Below the pieces are notes generated by a model that saw only the letters and a list, made by a program, of their open reading frames with translations, had not been told where the DNA came from and ran no database searches. Both the position numbers and the translations under genes were made by a program. DNA of 6,853 nucleotides from Spirochaetaceae bacterium (GTDB lineage Bacteria > Spirochaetota > Spirochaetia > Treponematales > Treponemataceae). The stretch lies in contig JAGCMR010000134.1 of NCBI GenBank assembly GCA_017646305.1, positions 1-6,853 of the forward strand, read 5' to 3'. Shown piece after piece: positions 1-6,551 of the stretch (position 1 is its first letter; each line of letters begins with the position of its first letter).

Positions 1-71
1 AAATCGCAGAGTTTGCTCGTTCAGAGCACTTTGAGTTGTATAAGAAATTATTTACAGAATTTGGATTATAA
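1..71 (+). CDS. C-terminal end of an unidentified upstream protein (partial)
   Basis: The frame starting at base 3 is open from the window edge to a TAA at 69-71 and gives 22 residues ending YKKLFTEFGL. The stop overlaps the ATG of the next gene by one base (TAATG), the usual mark of translationally coupled operon genes, so this is very probably the tail of a real gene rather than chance reading. The tail is amphipathic and charged, with no membrane segment or motif. It is too short for family assignment. Given the DUF115 genes downstream, a sugar-nucleotide enzyme would fit, but nothing visible proves that. Confidence 0.6.
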   Translation, partial: IAEFARSEHFELYKKLFTEFGL

Positions 72-898
72 TGGGTTTATTAAGCCACATGGAGGCCATA
101 CTTGCCAGAGATAAGGCTCTTCGGAGTTCTGGCAGTATGGACGACTCCATCCAGAAGAAAAAAATTGAGGATTACCACAGTTTCTCAGAAAGGGCTGCAT
201 TAAAGCAAAGTGCAGTCCTTGTACCTTTTGGTCGGCGTTTTTTTATGCGGTATGAACATGGATTTGATGCGGTTTCTATCTTCAAATCTGTTTCTTCCGT
301 TGATTTTTGGAATGGAACACTTCCACAACATCAGCAATGGCATACCTTTTCTGGTGATGATTTAGAGCCATTCTACCAACTTTTTTCTAACGAGTTCAAT
401 CACAATCTTACCGACTTACACATAAAATCATTTATTTTGCTTGCGGATGTTCCTATCCAAGCAATTCTTCTTGTAGCAGATAAAACAATCGATCGTGAGC
501 TTATTGATGAAAATATTCCTGAGTTAGCAGATTATATTGCAGCAGAAATATTCAATGCAATAGAAGCTAACCATCCTACTCCCTTGCAGGAAGGAAGCAG
601 AATCTTTTCAGTTTCAATCAAGGAGCCAGTTGCAGAAATTACTGATATTTTACACATTGACACAGAAGCATTAGACCTGTTGTTTCCTGTTGTTTTGTCA
701 GAAACCTTAAATAGATTGCAACAGATCCTGTCTAGTGATGATATTGTATTCCCCTTGAATGAATTTGATATTGTCTTGTTCTTTTCTCATGCTGATAATA
801 TGGATGCAGATTTACTGCAATTCCAATTACAAAAGTATTTTATTCCTTTATTAGGAAGTTCCGCTTCTAAGATTCTCGTTGAATCAGTTCAGTCATAG
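71..898 (+). CDS. Cytoplasmic protein with GAF-like and degenerate GGDEF-like domains
   Basis: A 275-residue soluble protein without signal peptide or membrane helix. I do not recognise a named family. Residues 1-45 are polar and probably helical. Residues about 46-165 alternate hydrophobic strands (SAVLVPF, SFILLAD, AILLVAD) and helices in a pattern compatible with a GAF/PAS-type fold. Residues about 176-271 follow the order of a GGDEF domain: a first strand (IFSVSIK), a long helix (SETLNRLQQIL), SSDDIVF, then PLNEFDIVLFF at 228-238, where active cyclases have GGDEF followed by a hydrophobic strand, and a helix (DADLLQFQLQKYF). The two glycines and the Asp are replaced, so cyclase activity is unlikely. 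The ATG at 71 overlaps the preceding stop; an ATG at 89 is a possible alternative start. The stop lies 16 nt before the first DUF115 gene, so co-expression is likely. The CDS is supported strongly; the domain assignments are fold-level inference from reading the sequence. Confidence 0.85.
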   Translation: MGLLSHMEAILARDKALRSSGSMDDSIQKKKIEDYHSFSERAALKQSAVLVPFGRRFFMRYEHGFDAVSIFKSVSSVDFWNGTLPQHQQWHTFSGDDLEPFYQLFSNEFNHNLTDLHIKSFILLADVPIQAILLVADKTIDRELIDENIPELADYIAAEIFNAIEANHPTPLQEGSRIFSVSIKEPVAEITDILHIDTEALDLLFPVVLSETLNRLQQILSSDDIVFPLNEFDIVLFFSHADNMDADLLQFQLQKYFIPLLGSSASKILVESVQS

Positions 899-904
899 TA
901 TCCC

Positions 905-908
905 GGAG
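905..908 (+). promoter_or_regulatory. Ribosome binding site GGAG of the first DUF115 gene
   Basis: GGAG lies 6 nt before the ATG at 915, an ideal spacing. It decides the start: the same frame is open back to a TTG at 879, but that TTG lies inside the previous gene, has no comparable Shine-Dalgarno sequence and would add 12 uninformative residues. Confidence 0.75.
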
Positions 909-914
909 TCTGGG

Positions 915-2420
915 ATGAATACGATTCAATATAGTCTAGCTAAAACAGGGAAACAAACCTGTACCGTTAATGGAATTCGCCTTCATTCAGCCTATGATCC
1001 TGTAAAAGAAGCCCAACGATTTGTCTCTGGCATAGACTTTGGCTTTATTCCAAAGCTTATTGTTGTAACAGAGCCTGCTCTCTCCTACTGCGTAGATTTT
1101 TTAAGACAAACCTATCCAGATGCAATTCTTGTGGCCATACGCTTTACCCATGATTTTGATGAATATAATTATTTATGGGACAAGGTTTTTGACTATGATA
1201 ATGTTATTCAAATATTAAATATCTATGGTGAGGATGTGGTTTTAGCTGCAGGTTTTCTCTCTTGGCAGCCATCTCAGCAGGTATATTCAGAAGAATACAA
1301 TTACTGCTGGCAGCAAATTAAAAATCTTGTACAAACTAGCAGAGATATTTTAGGAACTCGAGCTTATTTTGGAAAACGATGGCTTAAAAATACCATTTCT
1401 TTTTGTAGCAGGGTAAAAAATACTTCCACTATAGAACCAGGAACAGCACCTATCTTACTTGTTGCTTCTGGTCCATCATTGAAATCTTCTCTAGATTATA
1501 TTATCAAGTACAGAGATTCCTTTTTTTTGATTGCCTTATCCTCGGCTCTCTCACCTTTATTGGCAGCAGGAATCCAACCAGATATATGTATTTCTACAGA
1601 CGGTGGCTACTGGGCAAAGCGCCATATTGATTTTTGCTCTATTCCCCTAGCCTTACCAGCAGAAGCTGCTATTGCAGCACAACTTTTTGAAAAAAATATT
1701 ATTCCTCTTAAGTATGGTGATGCCCCAGAATCTGAGCTTTTAGATATTTGTAAAATACCCTCTCTGCAAGCCCTTCGTAACGGTACTGTCAGCGGAACTG
1801 CGTTGGAACTGGCACTCACTCTTACTACAGGACCAGTTTTTGCCTGTGGACTTGATTTAGCCACAGCAGTGGGCTTCCAGCATTGTCAGCCTAATCGACT
1901 AGAAATGGCAGCTGAAGCAAAGGATCAGAGACTTACACCTAAGGAAACACGATTGTTTCCTCAGCAGCTTCCGTCCCAATCCTTGGAGATTTATGCCCAG
2001 TGGTTTGTAAGTCAAAGTACCCGTTTTAAGGATCGATTTTACCGATTAGCTCATTCTAGCTATCAATTCTCCAATAGACTTGGTGTAATCCAAGATATTG
2101 ATTGGAAAAAATTTGTAGCAATTCTTGCTCAATATAAAAAAAATAAAGCAACAGTACGTTTTCCTGTAATTCGTTCTGTAATAATTCCAGATGAACGTCA
2201 ACGATATAATCTACTCTTAGAAGCCTTGGAAAATTATAAGCAACAGAAGCTCCCTCACCATTGGCTTTCTACCCTATTACCAGCAGAACAAGCCTTGTTA
2301 GGCAGGACCCTTGATAAATCTGAGCTTGAGGCAGAAATTAAAGACAAGTCCAGCAAATGCATAAATGAAATCATTGACTACCTAAAATCCATTGGAGAAA
2401 AAAAAGACCATGTTATATAA
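915..2420 (+). CDS. DUF115 / Maf-like (MptE-like) motility-associated glycosyltransferase, copy 1
   Basis: A 501-residue soluble protein of the DUF115 family, which includes archaeal MptE pterin pyrophosphokinases and bacterial Maf (motility associated factor) proteins proposed to transfer nonulosonic-acid sugars to flagellin. Residues 40-80 form a Rossmann-like N-terminal segment (KLIVVTEPALSY), followed by AYFGKRWLKN (150-159), which matches the FGK.W.+N element of the next gene. The DUF115 core has VASGPSLK at 183-190, GIQPD at 219-223, and DGGYWAKRH at 229-237. Next come a GTALELA segment (294-300) and CGLDLA (311-316). The C-terminal part, about 392-501, is helical and charged. Length fits the family's shorter members. 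The usual glycine-rich N-terminal motif, present in the neighbouring paralogue as GLGNGIH, is absent. It ends inside the next gene by 11 nt, so the two are probably translated together. The family call is firm; flagellin as substrate is inferred from the family, since no flagellin gene is visible. Confidence 0.88.
   Translation: MNTIQYSLAKTGKQTCTVNGIRLHSAYDPVKEAQRFVSGIDFGFIPKLIVVTEPALSYCVDFLRQTYPDAILVAIRFTHDFDEYNYLWDKVFDYDNVIQILNIYGEDVVLAAGFLSWQPSQQVYSEEYNYCWQQIKNLVQTSRDILGTRAYFGKRWLKNTISFCSRVKNTSTIEPGTAPILLVASGPSLKSSLDYIIKYRDSFFLIALSSALSPLLAAGIQPDICISTDGGYWAKRHIDFCSIPLALPAEAAIAAQLFEKNIIPLKYGDAPESELLDICKIPSLQALRNGTVSGTALELALTLTTGPVFACGLDLATAVGFQHCQPNRLEMAAEAKDQRLTPKETRLFPQQLPSQSLEIYAQWFVSQSTRFKDRFYRLAHSSYQFSNRLGVIQDIDWKKFVAILAQYKKNKATVRFPVIRSVIIPDERQRYNLLLEALENYKQQKLPHHWLSTLLPAEQALLGRTLDKSELEAEIKDKSSKCINEIIDYLKSIGEKKDHVI
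2394..2397 (+). promoter_or_regulatory. Ribosome binding site GGAG of the second DUF115 gene, spaced by an A8 tract
   Basis: GGAG lies 12 nt before the ATG at 2410, longer than usual, and 8 of the spacer bases are an uninterrupted A run (2398-2405). The site sits inside the end of the preceding gene, so initiation is probably coupled to termination at 2418-2420. A TTG at 2392 in the same frame overlaps the Shine-Dalgarno itself and is not a credible start. Confidence 0.6.
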
Positions 2421-3978
2421 ATCTACAGTGGAAGCCAAGGATGGAACCTTAGTACCAGTTTTTTTTAATGGAAAAACCATGTTTTCTCGTTATGCTCCTT
2501 TGAAGGAGGTAGAAAATTTTGGTGCTACTGTTAACCTACAAGGTGAACAAGGTGGATTTTTTGTGGTAGCTGGACTTGGCAACGGAATTCACATTCAAGC
2601 TTTACGAAAAAGATTTCCCCAAAGCCTGATTTTGGTTATAGAACAAAATCTTGATGATATTCAGTGGTTAAAAGAAAATTTTAACTTACAAACATTGCTT
2701 TCCATGGATAATATTTGGCTTACCTCCAGTAGTCAGGCGGCACAAAGCTTTATACAACTCTACAATCCTCTGCTTCATGGGAACTTTTTTTTCTTGCCTG
2801 TACGTTCTTGGTACGATCAAATTCCAGAAGAAGCTTCTCAACTTAAAATTTCCTTGGAACAAGCATTAGCATCCATTGCAGGCGATTTTTCAACTCAAGC
2901 TCATTTCGGAAAGCTTTGGTTTAGAAACTTTTTTTTGAACCTAAAAGCTCTTGTAGCAAATCCCAGAGATTTGCAGCTAGAAATACAAAAGAAATATGCC
3001 TTTGTGGCAGCTGCAGGCCCCAGCCTTGATTCATTTATTCCTGACTTAAAAAACAGCCTAATTCGGGAAAAAATCTATTTGATTACTACAGATACAGCCT
3101 TGCCAGTGCTTTTACGTCATGGAATTATACCAGATATGGCAGTAACCATAGACGGACAGGCTGCATCTACACGCCATTTTTTGCAAAAACTTCCCAGCTC
3201 CATGGTTTTAGCTGCCGATATTTCATGCTCTCCAGATGTTATACTTCGTTGTAAAGAAAGGGGCTGTCCCATTTTATTTTTTCGTAATAAAAATCCTTTG
3301 CCACTATTGCTAGAAACATATCTAAAAGAAATTGTTTCTGACAATCACGATGTATATGAATCTGTGCTTCCAGAAATCGATACAGGAAGCGGAACAGTAA
3401 CTGCAGCAGCAGTGGATTTAGCCTATAAAATGGGTTTTTATCAGATTCAAGTGGGTGGCGGAGACTTTGCCTATGTACAGGGAAAGCCCTATTGTCGGGG
3501 TACTTATTTTGAGGATCAGTTTTCCACTACAGCAGACAGAACTACTCCATTGGAGCAAAAATATGTTGAACTCATGTATCGAGGTACAACCTTCAAGGAA
3601 AACGACAGGCTTGTTACAACAGTTTTAGATGAATACAGAAAATCATTTCAGCAATACATAAAGAACCATGCTGATGTACATATTATTACTGATACTAAAA
3701 GGATTTATCTAGAAGGAGCCAAGGACAAAATTTCAAGTGAAAGCCCTCTTTCAACTTCCAATTCCATCAAAATAACCCATCTCAGTAAAAAAAATTATGA
3801 AGGTTTTGTGACTTGGTATACCAACCTATTGAAAGAAAAAAAACAAGAAGTTATTTACTCTATTTTACCCCTATTTGGATGGTATATTAAAAAAAACAAT
3901 GATAAATGTGATATTTTTTATATTATGAAACTTGCATACTCTCAAACTGTACGATATACTGAAACGTATGGAAAATAA
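2410..3978 (+). CDS. DUF115 / Maf-like (MptE-like) motility-associated glycosyltransferase, copy 2
   Basis: A 522-residue soluble protein and clear paralogue of the preceding gene. The N-terminal Rossmann-like domain carries VVAGLGNGIH at 52-61 followed by LILVIEQN at 73-80, a typical glycine-rich nucleotide-binding strand-loop-helix and acidic strand end as seen in Maf N-domains. HFGKLWFRN lies at 165-173. The DUF115 core shows AAGPSLD at 201-207, GIIPDMAVTIDG at 238-249 with the RH pair at 255-256, GSGTVTAAAVDLA at 326-338, and GGGDFAY at 349-355 in the place of the family's G.DLA motif. The region from about 385 to 522 is helical and lysine-rich. The expected role is transfer of a nonulosonic-acid or related sugar to a flagellar or surface protein in the cytoplasm. 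Because it keeps the glycine motif lost in copy 1, it is the better candidate for the catalytic member of the pair. It overlaps its neighbours by 11 nt on each side. Donor and acceptor cannot be read from sequence. Confidence 0.9.
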   Translation: MLYKSTVEAKDGTLVPVFFNGKTMFSRYAPLKEVENFGATVNLQGEQGGFFVVAGLGNGIHIQALRKRFPQSLILVIEQNLDDIQWLKENFNLQTLLSMDNIWLTSSSQAAQSFIQLYNPLLHGNFFFLPVRSWYDQIPEEASQLKISLEQALASIAGDFSTQAHFGKLWFRNFFLNLKALVANPRDLQLEIQKKYAFVAAAGPSLDSFIPDLKNSLIREKIYLITTDTALPVLLRHGIIPDMAVTIDGQAASTRHFLQKLPSSMVLAADISCSPDVILRCKERGCPILFFRNKNPLPLLLETYLKEIVSDNHDVYESVLPEIDTGSGTVTAAAVDLAYKMGFYQIQVGGGDFAYVQGKPYCRGTYFEDQFSTTADRTTPLEQKYVELMYRGTTFKENDRLVTTVLDEYRKSFQQYIKNHADVHIITDTKRIYLEGAKDKISSESPLSTSNSIKITHLSKKNYEGFVTWYTNLLKEKKQEVIYSILPLFGWYIKKNNDKCDIFYIMKLAYSQTVRYTETYGK

Positions 3979-5776
3979 AGCTATCAAGATTCTTTCTATC
4001 TGCCTCGTTGCTTTGTTCACCTTGGCAGTTCTTTTTTTTGCAGTTGGACTACTTGTTGAATACAAAAACGCACCAAAGGTTATTGATTCAACATTGAATC
4101 AGTTTACCTCTGATGTTGGTGTAGCCTCAGAATACTATACTCCTGGTACTCAGCAATTTTCAGATGTACTGCGAGCAAGAATTGCTTCAAATAAAACTAT
4201 TGCAGTAGTGACTATTGCTCAAGACAATAATGTTATTTTTGCCTATCCTCTGTCCTCACCTTTTATCGTTCAAGGTATTACAGGTCAACCAACCGTATCA
4301 GCTGCATCTTCCTTTGTTCAGGTTAAAAGCGATACCGTAGAGCTGGGTAGTGGAAATTATCTCATTACCAGTGCCTTATATTCATTGCAGCCTGCAGTAA
4401 TTTATTCTTATATCCGCATTTCTTTCCTCATCATTTTAGCAGGAACATTGATTGCAGGTATTGCCTTAATGTACCTTTATCTTACCGAACAAAAACAGGA
4501 AACAGAAACAAGCTTTGACGATCTTGCAACAGCACAGCGATTAAAAAACAGTAAGATTGACTTTCCTGAAGTAGATGCAGAAGCTTCCATTGATGCATTG
4601 GCAGATGATGGCTTTGATTTTCCAGCAGATGATGAAAATCAGTTTTTTGACGAAAATAATCTTCCAGAAGAAGCCTTTGAGTTCCCTCCAGCAGATGAAA
4701 TTCCAGTAGAGTCTCATTTTGTACTTCCACAAGAAGAAGAATTGGAACAACAAGAGATTTCTGTTGAAGATTTTCAGTCTCCAGAGGTTGAGCTTGACTA
4801 TCCCATGCCTCCAGTAGAAGAAGAAACTGTTCAGCAGGAAGATTTTGTTCCCCCTCCAGTAGAAGGAGACTTAACTGAAATTACCGACAATGATTATGTT
4901 GTAGAGGATTTTAAGTCATTTGAACAGGAACTGGAACCTCCAGTTGAGGAAAATCCAATTTATGATACTGAACCAGAAATCCCATCGGAAACTGAGTTGG
5001 AAAATGCAGTAGTGACACAAGCAAAATTCACCCAAGAAAACCTTGATTTACCTGCTTCTGAAAATGCTTCCAAGGATGAATTTAATATTGATAAGGCATT
5101 ACAAGGCTATGAGCCCCCTGTAAAAGAGGTTCCACAAGAAATTGACACCACAAAGGAGCCAGATTTCTTTGAGCCTGTTACAGATAATCTCCATGAACCA
5201 GTGCAAGAGTCTGTTGAATCACCAGAGGTTACAGCAGAATCTTCAGATGTATCTTCTGAGCCTGCAGGTCTTTTTTCACCAGTAACTGGTTTTGGTTGGG
5301 AAGCATATCTTGAAGAGCGTCTTGATTCTGAGTTGATTCGTTCTGCTTCTTCAGAAGAAGATATTGGTCTTATGATTGTAAGAATCCAGGGACTTGATAA
5401 AACTGACCAGCGAAATAAAGCAATTTATGACACCTTGTTGGAATTCTATAAATTCCGAGATTTAATTTTTGAATACGGAAATGACGGATTCTCCTGCATT
5501 GTACACAGCATCAATGTGGATGCTGCCTTGGATCTGGCTGAGCAAGTTTATGTTGCCCTTTCAAAGATTTTAAAAGATAACGGTATGGATAATGAAATTG
5601 GTATTGGTATTTCCACCCGTTCCTTCAGATTAATTCCCGGAAAGAGAATTTTTGAAGAAGCTGAGCAGGCCTTGATCCGTGCCTTTGCAGATCTAGAAAC
5701 TGCCATTGTTGCCTTTAGAGTTGATCCTGAAAAATATCGACAGTATATTTCTGCTTACGCTGACGAAGAACAATAA
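3968..5776 (+). CDS. Membrane sensor-like protein with acidic Pro-rich linker and degenerate GGDEF domain
   Basis: A 602-residue protein. Residues 7-31 are a transmembrane helix after a short basic N-terminus. Residues 32-147 are predicted extracytoplasmic, with strands (TIAVVTIAQDN, NVIFAYP, SSFVQVK) suggesting a small PAS/Cache-like sensor fold. A second helix spans 148-172. Residues 173-440 form a highly acidic, Pro/Glu-rich, probably disordered linker with repeated PPVEE and DFP-type motifs. Residues 441-595 have GGDEF order: LMIVRIQGLD, FRDLIFEY, GNDGF at 504-508, a helix (DAALDLAEQVYVAL), IGIGIS, EAEQALIRAFAD and a final VAFRVDPEKY. Catalytic Glu is Gly, the second signature Gly is Asn, and the early metal-site Asp positions read R472 and Q474, so it should not make c-di-GMP. 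The inhibitory RxxD site reads KFRD. The chosen ATG is directly followed by the membrane helix; a TTG at 3932 is less likely. No clear Shine-Dalgarno is visible, so coupled translation from the preceding gene is likely. It may pass an envelope signal to the DUF115 proteins; this is inference. Confidence 0.85.
   Translation: MENKAIKILSICLVALFTLAVLFFAVGLLVEYKNAPKVIDSTLNQFTSDVGVASEYYTPGTQQFSDVLRARIASNKTIAVVTIAQDNNVIFAYPLSSPFIVQGITGQPTVSAASSFVQVKSDTVELGSGNYLITSALYSLQPAVIYSYIRISFLIILAGTLIAGIALMYLYLTEQKQETETSFDDLATAQRLKNSKIDFPEVDAEASIDALADDGFDFPADDENQFFDENNLPEEAFEFPPADEIPVESHFVLPQEEELEQQEISVEDFQSPEVELDYPMPPVEEETVQQEDFVPPPVEGDLTEITDNDYVVEDFKSFEQELEPPVEENPIYDTEPEIPSETELENAVVTQAKFTQENLDLPASENASKDEFNIDKALQGYEPPVKEVPQEIDTTKEPDFFEPVTDNLHEPVQESVESPEVTAESSDVSSEPAGLFSPVTGFGWEAYLEERLDSELIRSASSEEDIGLMIVRIQGLDKTDQRNKAIYDTLLEFYKFRDLIFEYGNDGFSCIVHSINVDAALDLAEQVYVALSKILKDNGMDNEIGIGISTRSFRLIPGKRIFEEAEQALIRAFADLETAIVAFRVDPEKYRQYISAYADEEQ
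4685..5131 (+). repeat. Imperfect PPVEE-type repeats in the acidic linker
   Basis: Five irregularly spaced copies of a Pro-Pro-(Val/Ala)-acidic motif are encoded: PPADE at residues 240-244, PPVEEE at 281-286, PPVEG at 296-300, PPVEEN at 324-329 and PPVKEV at 383-388 of the membrane protein. The first four share the DNA hexamer CCTCCA at 4685, 4808, 4853 and 4937; two continue identically as CCTCCAGTAGAAG. The repeats are degenerate rather than a clean tandem array. Confidence 0.6.
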
Positions 5777-5793
5777 TAATAATTAATACTATA

Positions 5794-5842
5794 AAAATGG
5801 GCTATCTAGTTTGAAGTTAATTCAAGCTGAATAGCCCATTTT
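5794..5842. terminator. Bidirectional intrinsic terminator between convergent operons
   Basis: A perfect 12-bp inverted repeat, AAAATGGGCTAT at 5794-5805 and ATAGCCCATTTT at 5831-5842, encloses a second 8-bp stem (5808-5815 with 5821-5828, one G-U wobble) closed by a 5-nt GTTAA loop. The two stems can stack into a long hairpin. On the plus strand it is followed by TTTTATTTTG; on the minus strand the arm runs into TTTTTATAG. Both neighbouring genes point into it, so it most likely ends both transcripts. It fills most of the 91-nt intergenic gap, in which I see no other gene. Confidence 0.88.
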
Positions 5843-5867: not shown

Positions 5868-6551
5868 TTACTCATTTGTGTTTTCTTCAACTATAGGCTC
5901 TTGATCTTTATCACCTTGATCTTGTTCTTGAGACTTTTCTAAAATCTCATCCTCTAAAACAGCAGTTTTTCCTTCCTGAGACTCCCAAGCTTTTGTAAGC
6001 TTATTTTCAAAATCATCGATAGAGCTATTATCTGGAAAATCCGTTTTAAGCTGATGGAGGGCAATTTCAGCCTCTTCAAGATAATTTCCTGTAATCAATA
6101 CCGTGATAAAGTTTTCCTGCAGGGCCTGATCGTAGGGATTCTTCTCTACCAGTTTACGATAACTTGCACTTGCATAGGCTAAATCACCCTGCCGAGCGTA
6201 AATATAGGCGAGACTTTTTTCAAGGTCACTATTATCAGGGTCTTTTTCCAACAGCTGTTCATATCCAAGTCGGGCTTTTTCCCAATTCTCTGATAAAGCA
6301 TAGGTAAAGGCTATCTTGTATTGAGCAGATTCAGTTAAATCAGGATGATCAAGTGCCTTTGTGTAATACTCAATAGCCTTCTGATAATTCTTATTATCTA
6401 GATACGCATCGCCAATAAGATAATATTCAGACAAGATATTGCTGTAGATTCGGTCTTTCTCCCCTACAATACCAATTCCCTGCTGAGAACTACAGGAAAA
6501 AAGTAAAAACACAAAGGCAACAAGAACAAAAGGGTACAAGCCTTTTTTCAT
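5868..6551 (-). CDS. TPR-repeat lipoprotein
   Basis: A 227-residue predicted lipoprotein. The signal peptide MKKGLYPF plus a hydrophobic stretch (9-18) ends in the lipobox LFSC with Cys20 as the lipidated residue. Phe at position -2 is unusual for enterobacteria but acceptable for the looser spirochaete lipobox. Residues about 42-175 form four tetratricopeptide repeats: 42-75 (GDAYLDNKNYQKAIEYYTKA), 76-109 (ending LLEKDPDN), 110-141 (YARQGDLAYASASYRKLVEK) and a weaker 142-175. A tail of about 28 residues (200-227) is rich in Asp, Glu and Gln. TPR lipoproteins scaffold envelope protein complexes; no partner can be read here. The ATG begins 2 nt after the stop of the uracil phosphoribosyltransferase gene, without a strong Shine-Dalgarno, so it probably depends on that gene's transcription and translation. 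It shares only the terminator with the opposite operon. Confidence 0.9.
   Translation of the reverse strand: MKKGLYPFVLVAFVFLLFSCSSQQGIGIVGEKDRIYSNILSEYYLIGDAYLDNKNYQKAIEYYTKALDHPDLTESAQYKIAFTYALSENWEKARLGYEQLLEKDPDNSDLEKSLAYIYARQGDLAYASASYRKLVEKNPYDQALQENFITVLITGNYLEEAEIALHQLKTDFPDNSSIDDFENKLTKAWESQEGKTAVLEDEILEKSQEQDQGDKDQEPIVEENTNE

Follow-up and report, generated by a model that had tools for sequence, protein, structure and literature searches.

A conserved Treponema operon with reciprocally altered DUF115 proteins as candidate flagellin glycosyltransferases

Introduction

What would two dissimilar DUF115 proteins do, encoded side by side in a spirochaete and in the company of proteins that appear not to be enzymes? 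The question is raised by a 6,853-nucleotide stretch of DNA from Spirochaetaceae bacterium (contig JAGCMR010000134.1), referred to here as the window, which carries four tightly packed genes on the same strand, P1, DUF115A, DUF115B and P4, together with the tail of a fifth, P0. It bears on flagellin glycosylation in Treponema. In T. denticola, a member of the same genus, filament assembly and motility depend on a 450.2 Da glycan on FlaB; such a modification requires a transferase, which the passage reporting the glycan leaves unnamed (PMC9481697). No name for a Treponema flagellin transferase was found in the open-licence literature, most of it represented by titles. A preliminary description of the window had proposed a glycosylation or motility module of two DUF115 proteins flanked by two pseudo-GGDEF proteins. 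On balance, we lean towards reading the locus as a conserved Treponema operon in which the DUF115 pair would be a Maf-type glycosyltransferase, placing a nonulosonic-acid-type sugar on flagellin, with catalytically dead partners in control. The pairing and the two residues that distinguish its members are the most surprising part of the locus.

Results

Family assignment of the DUF115 proteins

DUF115A (positions 915..2420; this and all other features are on the plus strand unless stated) and DUF115B (2410..3978) scored 70.9 and 98.4 bits, respectively, against PF01973, for which the Pfam cut-off is 34.6, confirming that the two middle genes encode DUF115 proteins. A profile of 15 rows comprising A, B and stand-alone DUF115 proteins matched the solved Maf structure 5mu5 with an E-value of 9.3e-23 and the archaeal MptE structure 8sd5 with an E-value of 1.9e-10; DUF115B as a single query matched 5mu5 at an E-value of 0.035 only. 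The NCBIfam FlagModPseD model matched DUF115B at 44.1 bits and DUF115A at 12.8 bits, both far under its cut-off of 670, and the proteins are therefore labelled Maf-type, the narrower name PseD having been dropped.

The likeness to Maf/PseD, as represented by 5mu5, comprises PF01973 above its cut-off, an N-terminal part with an HSxYxPxxE motif, the retained GPSL-type motif, Asp and GxD, and a distribution that tracks flagella, with NeuB in most flagellated genomes. The Maf protein has 666 amino acids (aa) compared to approximately 500 for DUF115A and DUF115B. Unlike Maf/PseD, these two occur as dissimilar tandem copies (48/48 loci) with reciprocal residue changes, and among the genes around them in the fetched loci there is a fixed non-enzymatic set and none recognised as serving the flagellum or sugar synthesis. 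The Pfam name of PF01973 and the match to 8sd5 would also allow both proteins to be taken for MptE-like pterin pyrophosphokinases. That identity is extremely improbable, given the much stronger match to Maf, the length of the proteins (8sd5 has 241 aa) and a DUF115 distribution that tracks flagellin.

Reciprocal residue changes in the DUF115 pair

Stand-alone spirochaete DUF115 proteins had the Gln of a D-x-Q site in 62/62 cases and a His after GxD in 62/62. The members of the tandem pairs each departed from this at one position. In DUF115A the Gln was replaced by Gly or Ser in 47/47 proteins and the His was retained in all 47; in DUF115B the Gln was retained in 47/47 and the His was replaced by Tyr in 47/47. 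The window follows this pattern, with D-G-G (Asp kept, Gln to Gly) at 1599..1607 and the retained His at 1881..1883 in DUF115A, and D-G-Q at 3151..3159 and Tyr at 3490..3492 in DUF115B. The 47 pairs comprised 27 from the alignment and 20 later additions from loci chosen by P0; two B rows (L026, L027) that duplicated counted genes had been removed, and L066 and L037, the latter nearly duplicating L036, entered the gene-order counts but not the residue tallies. The 62 stand-alones comprised 58 from the best-scoring loci of the order and the phylum, each showing one DUF115 frame in 2-3.5 kb, plus four others. Since the median identity was only 30% among 27 A proteins and 31% among 27 B proteins, the pattern does not reflect mere relatedness. 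In the phylum batch there were three distant pairs, of which two (L135, L154) fitted the pattern.

Conservation of the gene order

Loci with P0 were collected from 48 distinct genomes (48 loci; 16 chosen by a DUF115 match, four by P4, eight by P0/P4 and 20 by P0 alone). Flagellin was present in 45 of these genomes, and G002-G004 lay outside the flagellin search. Eighteen loci had been fetched as likely pairs by DUF115 match; 16 of them had the pair and P0, and the other two (L046, L048), with a stand-alone DUF115 and without P0, stand outside the 48. L052 and L053 were fetched as stand-alones, and L055, L057, L058, L060, L063, L064, L065 and L067 are flanking stretches without P0.

P0 was followed by DUF115A and then DUF115B in all 48 loci, including 20/20 in the batch picked by P0 alone, an order that is far beyond chance. 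A recognisable P1 lay between P0 and DUF115A in 34/48 loci and P4 came immediately after DUF115B in 23/48; in others P4 was separated from the pair by a single gene on the opposite strand (e.g. L070, L071) or lay approximately 40-45 kb away (e.g. G012, G049, G053). All five genes, together with one NeuB match, are kept in a genome of 1,139,633 bp (L035, G017). The DUF115 pairs fetched from the order were thus not found without such neighbours. The unit nevertheless had to be redrawn from two DUF115 genes flanked by two pseudoenzymes: its most constant partner is P0, which apart from its end lies outside the window, and P4 is optional.

Outside the taxonomic order, P0 mostly occurred without an adjacent DUF115 gene. 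Of 20 phylum loci picked by P0, 16 had none beside it, and a protein with an MGL-type start occupied the place of P1 in 12; the remaining four comprised two with an A-B pair, one with two B-scoring genes and one with a lone A. In the four flagella-less genomes that were looked at, P0 stood beside the same kinds of neighbour, as recognised by eye, without P1, DUF115A or DUF115B. These arrangements suggest that the P0-P1 combination is the more ancient, that it acquired the DUF115 pair in the order and its near relatives, and that P4 was a later addition.

Co-distribution with flagellin and NeuB

The presence of these genes was compared in 194 genomes of the order and, as a second sample, 198 genomes of the phylum. 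In the order, PF01973 was matched in 176 genomes, above the cut-off in 175, and flagellin was found in the same 175. None of the 19 genomes that lacked flagellin had a PF01973 match above the cut-off; 18 had no match at all, and that in G033 (E-value of 4.8e-5) was the weakest in the table. In the phylum sample PF01973 was present in 190/198 genomes and flagellin in 197/198, with G332 lacking both. The suggested link between DUF115 proteins and motility was strengthened by this joint absence (175/175 versus 0/19). NeuB was matched at an E-value below 1e-25, a threshold chosen after inspection of the table, in 162/175 genomes with flagella and 3/19 without. A 2025 preprint that applied the same presence/absence logic to spirochaete motility genes reports two families, one of them in DUF2225, and its excerpted text does not mention the P0-P4 unit (PMC12236494).

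The commonest DUF115 count per genome in the order was four. In G001-G004 the tandem pair was accompanied by two stand-alone DUF115 proteins of 579-650 aa encoded elsewhere, with a fifth, weak match in G002. One of the stand-alones of each genome may be the flagellin transferase and the pair, still dependent on the flagellum, may act on another target, such as FlaA of the sheath, a component of the hook or motor, or a periplasmic protein. The retention of both invariant residues in the stand-alones and the absence of all DUF115 proteins together when flagellin is missing are compatible with this division of labour, and nothing specific speaks against it; known Maf proteins are, however, described as acting on flagellin (PMC4065374). 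We consider a non-FlaB target a minor possibility, albeit a real one.

The stand-alone genes have neighbours of their own. In L052 (5460-9249) a gene for a penicillin-binding transpeptidase with a PASTA domain ends within the gene of a 647-aa DUF115 protein, and a pair that looks similar was seen in L046 and L048. In L053 (7767-11017) the other stand-alone, of 579 aa, adjoins a PpiC-type prolyl isomerase gene.

Partner proteins P0, P1 and P4

In the loci examined P0 was mostly longer than 500 aa and 20-40% Asp plus Glu, with a conserved C-terminal domain of approximately 48 aa. This domain was matched in 178/194 genomes of the order (once in 175, twice in three) and 151/198 of the phylum sample. 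The window holds its last 22 codons and the stop at 3..71, the rest lying upstream; the translation, IAEFARSEHFELYKKLFTEFGL followed by the stop, matches the conserved domain of P0 in 19 loci. The four genes of the preliminary description are real, and this fifth gene had been missed. In L068, P0 adjoins a DivIC-like gene (E-value of 2e-4, under the Pfam cut-off). Leaving aside the flagella-less clade, most P0 proteins of the order had both a YGVWV motif close to the N-terminus and ETIALTGDELDNIL in mid-protein; neither pattern was matched in three flagella-less P0 proteins or in those of L135-L153.

P1 (71..898) is a soluble protein with a conserved MGLL start. Library searches matched nothing in Pfam at E-values up to 10 or in NCBIfam at E-values up to 1, and its GAF/GGDEF-like nature is deduced from an AlphaFold model (pLDDT 82.2, pTM 0.78, from a 41-row alignment) and fold comparison. 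Residues 27-164, approximately, are predicted to form a GAF fold. The C-terminal half (approximately residues 177-272) has a GGDEF-like topology; one Foldseek match spanned both halves (4zmu, E-value of 9.7e-4), and the VIA list was filled by the GAF half. As a soluble GAF/pseudo-GGDEF protein, P1 thus retains the GAF part of its original label by model, and the second part tentatively, by topology and that one match. Nine proteins at the place of P1 outside the order, most with an MGL-type start, had GAF above the cut-off in 6/9 cases and GGDEF in 3/9; their place and start suggest that they are P1 orthologues. The long ones among such proteins, and P1 by prediction, share the fold of PleD and of GAF-GGDEF diguanylate cyclases such as DcsBis (4zmu). 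Unlike in these cyclases, the C-terminal half of P1 has only approximately 95 aa.

A motif, GL[LMR]x[KR][AT], is repeated near the N-terminus of proteins at the P1 place outside the order, with ten matches in L153 (7972-10896) and four in L147 (8278-10536), compared to a background of 39 matches in 418,423 aa of other open reading frames (ORFs). It resembles the conserved MGLL start of P1 and looks like a docking peptide.

P4 (3968..5776) is a membrane protein with two hydrophobic segments, an acidic Pro-rich linker and a pseudo-GGDEF domain; the stretch of approximately 115 aa between the segments is presumably extracytoplasmic. Its closest named relatives are 'Treponema sp.' proteins from metagenome-assembled genomes, on which basis the contig is taken to be from Treponema. 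The GGDEF match of the window protein was sub-threshold (18.0 bits, cut-off 23.8) and its own AlphaFold model was poor; in the family, PF00990 was matched at E-values up to 0.1 in 12/18 members (best 6.8e-8), and the family profile matched the GGDEF chain 5euh in the Protein Data Bank (PDB) with an E-value of 8.1e-6. The C-terminus of P4 therefore has the fold of PleD and the GAF-GGDEF cyclases, but both the intact GG[DE]EF signature and the metal-binding Asp of strand 1 were lost (0/18 members each); in the window EYGNDGF (5471..5491) occupies the signature site. A role as a diguanylate cyclase was ruled out on these two counts. The description of P4 as a membrane pseudo-GGDEF protein was upheld, and the possibility that neither flanking protein has a GGDEF fold did not materialise, P4 being assigned by profile and P1, with its GAF and GGDEF-like halves, by model.

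Arrangement of the window

All four ORFs of the preliminary description were present, with starts corrected in agreement with homologues to ATG codons at 71 (P1), 915 (DUF115A), 2410 (DUF115B) and 3968 (P4); the last is marked by MENKA in 18/18 alignment rows. P0 and P1 share one base, at the stop of the former and the start of the latter, the gap between P1 and DUF115A is 16 nt, and DUF115A/DUF115B and DUF115B/P4 overlap by 11 nt each. Downstream, a convergent TPR gene with a lipoprotein-like start (5868-6551, minus strand) is followed by the end of a uracil-phosphoribosyltransferase-like gene; in many fetched Treponema loci the TPR gene stays beside upp. Between P4 and the TPR gene lies a 22-nt inverted repeat (5794..5842; 86% complementary, 5 nt between arms, T-rich final arm), a possible terminator shared by both genes. 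A terminator scan called none.

Discussion

In the mechanism that we propose, DUF115A and DUF115B would work as one heteromer, modifying flagellin FlaB in the cytoplasm with a CMP-activated nonulosonic acid as the probable donor, the latter suggested by the co-distribution of NeuB at the chosen threshold. P0, a long acidic chain with a conserved end domain, would tether the enzymes, and P1 and, in Treponema, P4 would be ligand- or envelope-responsive adaptors or switches and not enzymes. The gene order, the DUF115 motifs, the reciprocal residues, the phyletic pattern and the loss of the GGDEF motif are observed; the heteromer, acceptor, donor, tether and switches are inferred. A bolder version starts from the finding that neither DUF115A nor DUF115B has the full residue set of the stand-alones: only the A-B heteromer would be active, held by the acidic scaffold and switched by the dead GAF/GGDEF protein and the membrane GGDEF receptor, giving signal-gated flagellin glycosylation across Treponema. 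We judge this version to be fairly unlikely.

Several observations weigh against the proposal. With regard to the residue pattern, the B-like member of the third distant pair (L136) has Ser at the Gln position, L140 has a lone A-type gene beside P0, and the stand-alones used for comparison were selected by score, which cautions against over-reading the pattern. The solved Maf protein 5mu5 itself resembles DUF115A in having Gly in place of the Gln alongside a retained His, so that DUF115A need not be inactive. With regard to distribution, a RecA tree of 16 of the 19 flagella-less genomes and 12 flagellated ones grouped all 16 in one clade (support 100/99; of the three left out, two had no match and one was too short), and the co-loss of DUF115 and flagellin may therefore be a single event. 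Because all four DUF115 copies vanish together, the correlation with flagellin does not single out the A-B pair. Seven of the 197 flagellin-bearing phylum genomes (1.0-1.8 Mb) lacked PF01973. At the Pfam cut-off NeuB was found in 189/194 genomes, so that the contrast depends on the chosen threshold, and 13/175 flagellated genomes had no strong NeuB match. No recognised flagellar structural gene lies within the unit.

The persistence of the partners belongs to the same list. P0 was present in 18/19 flagella-less genomes, and a weak P4-like gene, matched mostly over the GGDEF half, in 17/19, which detracts from the earlier suggestion of an extra layer tied to DUF115 and motility. Since P0 is kept in genomes that lack flagella and, beyond the order, usually has no DUF115 gene alongside (16/20 loci), the extra layer is not confined to glycosylation. 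P0, P1 and P4 could accordingly be an older envelope or signalling unit that is unrelated to glycosylation, with the DUF115 pair merely co-transcribed in the order; the breadth of the P0 domain in the phylum, the MGL-type P1 in 12 of the 20 P0-chosen phylum loci and the DivIC-like neighbour in L068 fit such a unit. However, leaving the flagella-less clade aside, each P0 fetched from the order was followed by the pair, the open frames of the flagella-less P0 are short (190-282 aa), and P1 had gone along with the pair in the four genomes looked at. We regard an unrelated older unit as quite improbable.

If the glycosyltransferase reading is correct, the locus adds a paired variant of Maf-type flagellin glycosylation, and the reciprocal pattern of the A and B residues is new. 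The locus provides concrete candidates for the flagellin transferase of Treponema, conserved down to a 1.14-Mb genome, and relatives without flagella are also without an above-cut-off DUF115 pair. The transferase would be a divergent pair, its partners separated by two residues, and dead signalling domains may provide a layer of control.

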